From Flavobacteriales bacterium (GTDB taxonomy: Bacteria > Bacteroidota > Bacteroidia > Flavobacteriales_F > PHOS-HE28), in assembly GCA_019638115.1 (NCBI GenBank), contig JAHBUK010000001.1, positions 186,001 to 250,000 on the forward strand: DNA of 64,000 bases, in the 5' to 3' direction. The notes beneath the pieces are model-generated. The model was not told where the DNA came from and did no database searches. It saw only the letters and a program-made list of their open reading frames with translations. The position numbers and the translations under genes were made by a program. Shown in pieces: positions 5,559-7,887 of this stretch. Numbering within the stretch: the stretch's first letter is position 1; the number at the start of each line of letters is the position of its first letter.

Positions 5559-6659
5559 TCATTCGCTCAACTCCCGTTCGATGTCCTTCACGCTCGGCAG
5601 TGCGCCGCGCAAGTTCTTCGGCAACGTTGCCACCAAGCGTGTGCGCCATTCGGCCACTCCGATGGGCTTGGCCACGTCGCGCAACGCATATTCCACCACC
5701 AGCTTGTCGTTGTCCTTGCAGAGCAGCAGGCCGATGGAAGGTTTGTCGTCCGGATGGCGCATCTGTGCATCCACGGCGGTGAGGTAGAAGTTCATCTTAC
5801 CCGCATGCTCCGGCTCGAAGGCCTCCATCTTCAGGTCCACCACCACATAGCAGCGAAGCTTCAGGTGGTAGAAGAGCAGGTCTACTTTGTACTCCTTCCG
5901 ACCCACTTTAAGCACCACCTGCCTGCCTACGAAAGCGAAGCCAGTGCCCAATTCGAGCAGCACTTTCTGGATATGGTCCACCAGCGCCTGCTCCAGGTCG
6001 CGCTCGCGCATGTCGGCGGCGATCCCGAGGAACTCGAAGGTGTAGGGGTCCTTCAACGTTTGCTGCGCCAGGTCGGAGCGGTCGGCAGGGAGCGTGCGCT
6101 TGAAGTTGGTGATGGCCTTGCCCTGTCTGCGGTGCGCATGCGTGGCGATCTGTACGTCCAGCACCGCCCTACTCCAGCCGTTGGTGATGGTGGCCTGCGC
6201 GTACCACAGGCGGTGTTCAGGCTTCTTTACCCGTGACAAGAGCAACACGTTGTGGCCCCACGGAATTTGTCCAACAAGCTGTTGGACAATTAAGGAGTTC
6301 GGGTATGCCTCGGCGAACGCACGCATGTAGAGCATGTTAGAGCGGGAGAAACCGCCCATGTCCGGGAACTCCTTGTGCAGGTCTCTCGCCAGCCGTTCCA
6401 CCACCTTGCTGCCCCAGCCTTCCTTGTCCTGGCGTTCGATGATCTCCTTTCCGATGTGCCAGTAGAGCAGGACCAGTTCGTGATTGACGGCAAGAGCAGC
6501 GCGCAGCTGGGCTGCACTGATCCGCTCCTTCAACGCGGCAAGCAGCTCAGCGTAACCCTTCGGCATCACCACTATGGCTTTCGTGCGTGCCGTGGCTATA
6601 GGCTTTGGTCGCTTCACAACCTTCACGCTCGTGCGGGATGAAGACTTCTTCTTCGGCAT
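5559..6659 (-). CDS. DUF1016/YhcG-family PD-(D/E)XK nuclease
   Basis: 366 residues. The N-terminal half is the DUF1016 N domain (LLYWHIGKEIIERQ, RSNMLYMRAFAEAYP, QIPWGHNVLLLSRV) and the C-terminal half is a PD-(D/E)XK nuclease domain: FAFVGRQVVLKVG, YKVDLLFYHLKLRCYVVVDLK (the D...xDxK-type core), then MNFYLTAVD and PSIGLLLC. Family members are common in accessory regions and near defence genes, but their role is not settled. The Lys/Arg-rich first 30 residues are unusual; Met32 (6566) is an alternative start. A palindrome lies inside the gene at the codons for VQQLVGQI, and three near-copies form an array 97 bp upstream of the start. It is flanked by dispersed repeats. Confidence 0.9.
   Translation of the reverse strand: MPKKKSSSRTSVKVVKRPKPIATARTKAIVVMPKGYAELLAALKERISAAQLRAALAVNHELVLLYWHIGKEIIERQDKEGWGSKVVERLARDLHKEFPDMGGFSRSNMLYMRAFAEAYPNSLIVQQLVGQIPWGHNVLLLSRVKKPEHRLWYAQATITNGWSRAVLDVQIATHAHRRQGKAITNFKRTLPADRSDLAQQTLKDPYTFEFLGIAADMRERDLEQALVDHIQKVLLELGTGFAFVGRQVVLKVGRKEYKVDLLFYHLKLRCYVVVDLKMEAFEPEHAGKMNFYLTAVDAQMRHPDDKPSIGLLLCKDNDKLVVEYALRDVAKPIGVAEWRTRLVATLPKNLRGALPSVKDIERELSE
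6267..6289. repeat. Palindrome P1 inside the DUF1016 gene
   Basis: Perfect 10-bp arms TTGTCCAACA / TGTTGGACAA with spacer AGC. It encodes part of the conserved NSLIVQQLVGQIPW motif on the minus strand and matches the arms of the array unit at 6851-6879. Confidence 0.9.
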
Positions 6660-6756: not shown

Positions 6757-6785
6757 CAATTTTGCAACAAGCTGTTGCAAAATTG
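6757..6785. repeat. Palindrome array unit P2
   Basis: Perfect 13-bp arms CAATTTTGCAACA / TGTTGCAAAATTG with spacer AGC. Centre 6771. First of three units spaced exactly 47 bp. Confidence 0.95.
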
Positions 6786-6803
6786 AAGCGACCGATCATG
6801 GCT

Positions 6804-6832
6804 CAATTGTGCAACAGCTTGTTGCACAATTG
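6804..6832. repeat. Palindrome array unit P3
   Basis: Perfect 13-bp arms CAATTGTGCAACA / TGTTGCACAATTG with spacer GCT, that is, the P2 spacer in the opposite orientation. Centre 6818. Confidence 0.95.
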
Positions 6833-6850
6833 CGACCACCGACCAAAGAC

Positions 6851-6879
6851 CAATTGTCCAACACGCTGTTGGACGATTG
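6851..6879. repeat. Palindrome array unit P4
   Basis: Arms CAATTGTCCAACA / TGTTGGACGATTG with one mismatch and spacer CGC. Centre 6865. The TCC/GGA arm change relative to P3 (TGC/GCA) is compensatory. Confidence 0.9.
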
Positions 6880-7073
6880 AGCATCATAGCACGGCAAGGT
6901 CTGGTGAAGATGGTGTGGTGATGACGGCACCCACCCGAGCGCGAGCCGAAGCTACACGCGGCAGGCAGGTCTGCCTACCGCAGGTAAACCCGCAAAGGCG
7001 GAACGAGGACGCTGCGTAAGGGGTTGATGGGAGTGTGCAAGCGAAAGCCCGAAGAAGAGGACGGGGCAGAGCC

Positions 7074-7096
7074 GCTCAAGAGCAGCGGACAGAGGC
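7074..7096. repeat. Dispersed intergenic repeat, head only
   Basis: GCTCAAGAGCAGCGGACAGA, identical to the first 20 bases of the copy starting at 7799. Confidence 0.7.
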
Positions 7097-7112: not shown

Positions 7113-7143
7113 ATCTTGAGGTCACAGTTCGTGACATCAAGAT
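7113..7143. repeat. Palindrome Q1 upstream of ORF6N gene
   Basis: 13-bp arms ATCTTGAGGTCAC / GTGACATCAAGAT with one mismatch and spacer AGTTC. The core matches the palindrome inside the gene at 7396-7422. Confidence 0.85.
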
Positions 7144-7150
7144 CCTGCGG

Positions 7151-7181
7151 AATTGGAGGTGCACTTCTGGCACCTCCAATT
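7151..7181. repeat. Palindrome Q2 upstream of ORF6N gene
   Basis: Perfect 12-bp arms AATTGGAGGTGC / GCACCTCCAATT with a 7-nt spacer (ACTTCTG), ending 11 bp before ATG 7193. A TACTTTG promoter-like box follows at once. Confidence 0.9.
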
Positions 7182-7192
7182 ACTTTGGTGCC

Positions 7193-7771
7193 ATGAGCAA
7201 GGCATTGGTCACCATTCCGGATGAGGCGCTGGCTCGCAGGATCTTCCTCATCCGTGGCGAGAAAGTGATGCTCGACCGTGACCTGGCCGCGCTCTACGGA
7301 GTGGAGACCAAGGTCCTCAAGCAGCAAGTGAAGCGCAACATCCAGAGCTTCCCGGAGGACTTCATGTTCCAATTGACCGCCGAAGAGTTCGAGCACTTGA
7401 GGTCACAAATTGTGACCTCAAGACACGGTGGCGCCCGATACATGCCCATGGCCTTCACGGAGCATGGCGTGCTCATGCTGTCCAGTGTGCTGAAGAGCCC
7501 GCGTGCCAGAGCGGTCAATATCCAGATCATGCGGCTCTTCGTGAAGATGCGCGAACACCTGGTCACCCACAAGGACGTGCTCCTCCAACTGGAAAAGCTG
7601 CGCGGAACCTCCAAGGAGCACGCGGGCAAGATCGCGGTGATCTTCAAGTACCTGAAGCAAATGGAGCAACGTCAGCAGGAGACCGAACTGCTGGACGAGA
7701 TCCGGCGCGGCAAGGCCAAAAACCCGATCGGCTTCAAGGCTGCGAAAGAGCGGAGGGCGGGGAAGAAGTGA
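7193..7771 (+). CDS. ORF6N-domain DNA-binding protein
   Basis: 192 residues from ATG 7193 (MSKALVTIPDEALARRIF). The frame is open upstream to 7097, but that extension is made of the Q1/Q2 palindromes and does not resemble the family. ORF6N hallmarks are clear: IFLIRGEKVMLDRDLAALYGVETK, LKQQVKRNIQSFPEDFMFQL, then LRSQIVTSRHGGARYMPMAFTEHGVLMLSSVL in family terms, and a C-terminal helical Lys-rich tail. ORF6N/KilA-N-like domains bind DNA and are typical of phages and accessory islands. The codons for LRSQIVTS form a perfect palindrome that recurs upstream, suggesting the protein may recognise its own gene. Confidence 0.9.
   Translation: MSKALVTIPDEALARRIFLIRGEKVMLDRDLAALYGVETKVLKQQVKRNIQSFPEDFMFQLTAEEFEHLRSQIVTSRHGGARYMPMAFTEHGVLMLSSVLKSPRARAVNIQIMRLFVKMREHLVTHKDVLLQLEKLRGTSKEHAGKIAVIFKYLKQMEQRQQETELLDEIRRGKAKNPIGFKAAKERRAGKK
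7396..7422. repeat. Palindrome inside the ORF6N gene
   Basis: Perfect 13-bp arms CTTGAGGTCACAA / TTGTGACCTCAAG around a single central A. It spans the codons for the conserved HLRSQIVTSRH motif. Confidence 0.95.
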
Positions 7772-7798
7772 TCATGGCTACGCGCCGCAGGGTCGTCC

Positions 7799-7887
7799 GC
7801 TCAAGAGCAGCGGACAGACCCGGCGGAGGTTTGGGTGGACACCCTGCGGTGGTCTAAGGTTGGGGTGGACAGCCTGCGGTGGGCTAG
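7799..7887. repeat. Dispersed intergenic repeat, longest copy
   Basis: Head GCTCAAGAGCAGCGGACAGA, middle CCCGGCGGAGGTTTGGGTGG, tail ACACCCTGCGGTGGTCTAAG. The tail is then repeated at once (7861-7887: GGGGTGGACAGCCTGCGGTG). Immediately downstream of the ORF6N gene. Confidence 0.75.

Follow-up and report, generated by a model that had tools for sequence, protein, structure and literature searches.

Palindromes at a DUF1016 gene are probable binding sites for its own product, and coding-sequence palindromes co-vary with recognition residues in three protein families

The window, by which we mean the whole 64-kb stretch of DNA analysed, carries a gene of the DUF1016/YhcG family accompanied by the palindromes P1 to P4 and, divergent from it, an ORF6N gene (Table 1). 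The product of the former matched PF17761 (3.5e-45) and PF06250 (3.5e-65) and belongs to the DUF1016/YhcG family. In its AF2 model (pLDDT 76), residues 106-118 form a helix that is predicted to be the recognition helix, in which S107 and Y111 correspond to profile columns 76 and 80, respectively. The family, COG4804, has been described as combining a predicted PD-(D/E)XK domain with an unknown helical N-terminal domain (PMC1189080); the window gene is a member, and this literature reports neither a site nor a function.

Table 1 Features of the DUF1016-ORF6N locus in the window.
Feature	Position	Strand	Remarks
DUF1016/YhcG gene, 366 aa	5559..6659	-	DUF1016_N helical domain and PD-(D/E)XK nuclease domain
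R164 codon (NGWSR, profile column 133)	6168..6170	-	Co-varies with half-site base k2
P1, in-gene palindrome TTGTCCAACA-AGC-TGTTGGACAA	6267..6289 (core)	.	Fourth copy, inside the DUF1016 coding sequence
Codons of predicted recognition helix, residues 106-118	6306..6344	-	From AF2 helix and co-variation
P2, upstream palindrome CAATTTTGCAACA-AGC-TGTTGCAAAATTG	6757..6785	.	k6=C, sister-specificity half-site
P3, upstream palindrome CAATTGTGCAACA-GCT-TGTTGCACAATTG	6804..6832	.	k6=C, sister-specificity half-site
P4, upstream palindrome CAATTGTCCAACA-CGC-TGTTGGACGATTG	6851..6879	.	k6=G, own-type half-site, one mismatch
Upstream near-copy of ORF6N site	7114..7142	.	Own type, GGTCAC..GTGACA
Second upstream ORF6N-like palindrome AATTGGAGGTGC-N7-GCACCTCCAATT	7151..7181	.	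GGTGC type
Divergent ORF6N gene	7193..7771	+	PF10543 9.8e-36; organised like the DUF1016 gene
Codons of ORF6N recognition helix, residues 39-48	7307..7336	+	Q44 = profile column 45
In-gene ORF6N palindrome CTTGAGGTCACAA-A-TTGTGACCTCAAG	7396..7422	.	Encodes LRSQIVTSR

Re-measurement bore out what an earlier note had described as an array of three 29-bp palindromes with an exact 47-bp period: the centres lie at 6771, 6818 and 6865 with 18-bp gaps, and each unit consists of 13-bp arms around a 3-bp spacer (AGC, GCT and CGC in P2, P3 and P4, respectively), with one mismatched pair in P4. The minus-strand orientation of the DUF1016 gene puts the array upstream of it, as the note had placed it. Perfect 13-bp arms with a spacer of at most 3 bp occurred three times in the window against 0.07 expected under a Markov-1 model, the third case being located within the neighbouring ORF6N gene. 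When read in the minus-strand frame, P2, P3 and P4 gave ILQQLVAKL, IVQQLVAQL and IVQQRVGQL, respectively; that is, the array is the DUF1016 gene's own coding motif, of the IVQQLVAQ type. P1 encodes VQQLVGQ (motif IVQQLVGQ) at about residues 124-132. The spacing itself, for which a test of conservation had been proposed, was 47-48 bp in close relatives only and 32-108 bp at other loci. The half-site of P4 is of the gene's own type and those of P2 and P3 are of the sister type, which goes with Arg; close relatives having Arg also carry both types upstream. These mixed half-site types may be left over from specificity switches or may reflect regulation across paralogues.

The pattern of the DUF1016 site was found at four places in the whole 4.06-Mb genome, all at the window locus, and a reversed-pattern control gave none. 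The RhuM site was found once in the genome. Sites were searched for three proteins, and almost every match in the 4-Mb genome fell at the gene of the protein concerned. A genome-wide regulon was rejected on account of these near-private sites, and a dispersed or mobile palindromic repeat (REP/RPE) was rejected for want of many dispersed genomic copies.

The ORF6N gene likewise has one own-type and one paralogue-type site upstream, the GGTGC type being that of an ORF6N paralogue whose code residue is Arg. Its AF2 model places the helix at residues 39-48 with a pLDDT of 86. The ORF6N domain model weakly resembled the SKI/Dachshund DNA-binding domain (Foldseek probability 0.96, E about 0.1); no confident structural match was obtained when the DNA-binding domains were compared with solved structures, and a sequence search of the PDB gave no relatives. 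Two repeats unrelated to the palindromes were also observed, namely an exact 22-bp direct repeat, CCGCTCAAGAGCAGCGGACAGA, flanking the ORF6N gene at 7072-7093 and 7797-7818, and a 30-bp tandem pair near it at 7827-7886. Elsewhere in the same genome (contig C6, about 68511-69912, L299), three tandem ORF6N genes each have a different in-gene palindrome and the matching code residue.

In-gene palindromes were scored across families as the best palindrome in the stretch preceding a fixed motif. There were two controls: synonymous-codon shuffles that kept the codon usage of the gene, and windows taken elsewhere in these coding sequences. Mean scores exceeded those of the shuffles in DUF1016 (157 genes from many phyla; 9.6 vs 4.9), ORF6N (65 genes; 10.8 vs 4.7), RhuM (122 genes; 10.2 vs 5.1) and KilA-N (14 genes; 9.9 vs 5.1). 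A score of at least 9 was reached by 59%, 78%, 75% and 57% of the genes, respectively, compared with 1.8% of 1130, 3.1%, 0.4% and none of 44 control windows. The synonymous shuffles rule out protein constraint alone as the cause. The earlier impression from the array, that the arms vary while symmetry is kept, held in all four families: arm sequences differ widely between genes and are still symmetric. When 400 kb of the window's genome were sampled without bias, strong in-gene palindromes occurred almost only in these families (one KilA-N gene, one DUF1016 gene and several ORF6N genes). Two more groups with such palindromes surfaced in Bro-N searches (L442-L471), a DinD-like one (for example L463, TGACCATTTTGTTGACGTCAACAAAATGGTCA) and a Bro-N-related one (for example L458, AACTGTCGACAATTTGTCGACAGTT); the four strongest matches to true Bro-N showed no clear in-gene palindrome (three at score 6, one at 9). 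Two or three in-frame palindromes in a length-variable loop, with repeats of the VQTVSAQ type, were observed in some DUF1016 genes, namely L002, L101, L162, L095, L113 and E. coli yhcG (L434).

Upstream palindromes related to the in-gene one (similarity of at least 0.6) were found in 20 cases in DUF1016 and 14 in ORF6N, several of the latter within about 80 bp of the aligned start, and in none of 107 RhuM genes. The in-gene site is therefore the constant element. The refuting condition of the earlier note was directed at upstream regions; an upstream array was dropped as the defining feature, the upstream copies being optional.

Similar sites were observed in Escherichia coli. K-12 yhcG has three in-frame palindromes 39 bp apart and one just past the stop codon; their summed score is 38, and none of 1000 synonymous shuffles went above 26. 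A single palindrome is left in the allele of strain CDC#03-98, which carries a 78-bp in-frame deletion, and the number of in-gene palindromes varies between strains; in some strains yhcG is broken by IS elements or deletions. When the gltD-nanQ interval was compared (loci L473, L434 and L440), strain ATCC 25922, which lacks yhcG, was seen to keep a palindrome 27/27 identical to the first in-gene yhcG palindrome of EH41/BL21, and the gltF-yhcG island of K-12 was bracketed by two such palindromes. E. coli dinD carries the in-gene palindrome TGACCATTTCGAGGAGATCCTCGATATGGTCA and has a LexA-like box, AACTGTATATAAATACAGTT, upstream.

The relation between half-site bases and protein columns was analysed in DUF1016, ORF6N and RhuM by mutual information corrected for column averages. 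Outside the residues encoded by the palindrome, the peaks were on the predicted recognition helix in ORF6N (columns 45, 42, 46 and 49, which form one helix face) and in RhuM (columns 58, 53, 55, 52 and 51, the helix being inferred from sequence); in DUF1016 they were at columns 80 and 76, within the predicted helix, and at 129-134. At ORF6N column 45, Gln went with T in 32/32, Glu with C in 17/17 and Arg or Lys with G in 8/8 genes, which accounts for 57/57 informative genes. At RhuM column 58, Glu went with C (28/28) and Lys or Arg with G (32/32); at DUF1016 column 133, Arg or Lys went with G (75/79), and at column 76 Arg with C (26/27). The pairing of residue and base is nearly deterministic and its chemistry canonical. 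Since the code codons lie outside the palindrome, codon overlap cannot cause the pairing.

Switches were counted on trees made without the DNA-binding domain. In ORF6N there were no fewer than 19 changes of the base and 20 of the joint residue-base state, giving about 19 independent switches. With two states, the changes of base, residue and joint state numbered 14/14/14 for Glu/C and 7/7/7 for Arg-Lys/G in ORF6N, 19/19/19 for Arg-Lys/G in RhuM, and 23/22/27 for Arg76/C6 in DUF1016. When columns outside the palindrome were simply ranked, the helix was strongly enriched in RhuM (7 of the top 8, p=3e-10) and moderately in ORF6N (3 of the top 5, p=0.004), and it was not enriched in DUF1016 (1 of the top 5), for which phylogenetic confounding is likely; despite this, the targeted and prospective tests of DUF1016 hold. 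Leave-one-out prediction was correct for 56/56 ORF6N and 97/99 RhuM genes. For the prospective tests the rules were fixed beforehand. The genes were own-genome paralogues or came from new viral loci and from plasmids found in several genera and phyla, and they shared no more than 85% protein identity with any training gene or with one another. The ORF6N rule was correct in 29/29 cases and the DUF1016 rules in 18/18 (column 76) and 16/16 (column 133). Natural experiments were also found: Ser at column 76 goes with a GTCC in-gene site in the window protein and in L033, and Arg goes with GTGC in their close relatives L005-L008. Similarly, in E. coli, K-12-type YhcG has Lys with G and that of strain E21 has Arg with C at column 76, as the code predicts, this column having been placed by eye from the alignment in K-12 and by profile in E21.

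Taken together, these findings suggest that the adjacent DUF1016 protein probably binds P2-P4 as a dimer through its N-terminal DNA-binding domain and would autoregulate in this way. P2-P4 would be extra copies of the in-gene site, in a design common to ORF6N, RhuM and KilA-N. We regard it as highly probable that the bacterial and phage families DUF1016, ORF6N, RhuM and KilA-N, and probably DinD and the Bro-N-like group, are self-addressing: a private palindrome just after the recognition-helix codons would be read by the gene's product, so that specificity and an amino-acid-to-base code are readable from single genes. The computed support comprises the palindromes, selection on them and, for DUF1016, ORF6N and RhuM alone, their co-evolution with recognition residues; in one genome, three of the sites were moreover near-private. 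As protein and site change together by the code, each protein most likely recognises its own gene. Judging from the sequences, physical binding to the own site is very likely, and the site symmetry points to dimerisation. The dimer-binding operator put forward in the earlier note is accordingly a strongly supported candidate, with a two-fold symmetric site near the gene and a half-site co-varying with recognition residues.

Mechanistically, an HTH-like domain would be followed, a few tens of bases past its helix codons, by the coding palindrome which that domain reads. The protein would autoregulate at promoter-proximal copies where these are present, and the in-gene copy might serve as a roadblock or loop anchor. 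Because RhuM lacks related upstream copies (0/107), promoter occlusion cannot be the general mode. Autorepression would be the likeliest use of a private in-gene site and, taken alone, is slightly favoured. The site and the recognition helix are no more than about 100 bp apart, so that a mutation or a recombination event could change the two jointly and the gene would retain a private address after transfer. It counts against this explanation that P2 and P3 bear the sister half-site (k6=C) instead of the one that S107 would call for, and that a regulator with no target but itself must have some other reason for existing. The DUF1016 column ranking and the lack of a confident structural match likewise weigh against it.

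Another explanation is a self-addressed cassette or homing-like element, whose protein binds the site to move, protect or exclude copies of the gene, the upstream and downstream copies marking insertion points. The nuclease domain of DUF1016 and the near-private sites agree with this, as does one suggestive observation, the palindromes kept in yhcG-less E. coli and bracketing the K-12 island; however, EH41 lacks the left-hand palindrome, a nuclease would cut its own gene, and no nuclease or recombinase domain is recognised in ORF6N, RhuM or KilA-N. We consider the cassette unlikely. In the search for an empty site within the window's genus, synteny was found to be weak. The narrower proposal of the earlier note, that the palindromes are targets of the neighbouring nuclease, does not generalise, since ORF6N, RhuM and KilA-N share the feature and, to our knowledge, have no nuclease domain.

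The bound site could instead mainly seed a larger nucleoprotein complex or a sensor, for example a guard released at damaged or modified DNA, with autoregulation being secondary. DinD is SOS-linked, and this link, the LexA-like box upstream of dinD and the near-private target would fit such a role; this reading also appears improbable. Hairpins in mRNA, acting in translation control or as an RNA antitoxin as in type III toxin-antitoxin systems, are very improbable, although the arms vary with compensation and tandem repeats upstream of a possible toxin superficially resemble type III arrays: departures from pairing inside the arms of the four families comprised 37 G-T and 75 A-C on the coding strand, so that G-U wobble is not favoured, contrary to what a hairpin in sense RNA should show, and the hairpin proposal of the earlier note was rejected on this mismatch spectrum; the single-base centre in ORF6N and one DUF1016 subfamily leaves no proper hairpin loop, the bases track recognition-helix residues, and the upstream copies are optional. 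A-C departures were thus twice as frequent as G-T departures over the four families.

If self-addressing is true, the DNA target could be predicted from sequence alone for thousands of uncharacterised proteins that are common in defence regions, phages and mobile elements. For protein-DNA recognition the families would amount to a natural experiment in which residue and base have switched together many times independently, and yhcG and dinD make self-recognition directly testable in the laboratory strain E. coli K-12. A new question is why a protein's main address sits inside its own gene. A literature search, from which most subscription papers were absent, found nothing on palindromes or self-binding in these families, and we know of no precedent for an obligatory, diversifying, near-private site in a regulator's own DNA-binding-domain codons that is common to several families.

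Several known systems show partial likeness. REP/RAYT and Rickettsia palindromic elements are also gene-associated palindromes, some of them coding, but the window sites have no genome spread, with four places in 4.06 Mb at one locus. Intragenic operators such as lac O2 in lacZ and gal OI in galE likewise place a repressor site in a coding sequence, for roadblock or for looping with an upstream site; they lie, however, in the target gene rather than in the regulator's DNA-binding-domain codons and are not conserved family-wide. In Bacillus subtilis, parS within spo0J (parB) is a palindromic site of a DNA-binding protein inside the binder's own coding sequence, as in self-addressing genes. Whereas parS is a single conserved sequence that is present about ten times on the chromosome and serves segregation, the DUF1016-type sites are near-private, lie just after the recognition-helix codons and diversify with the helix.
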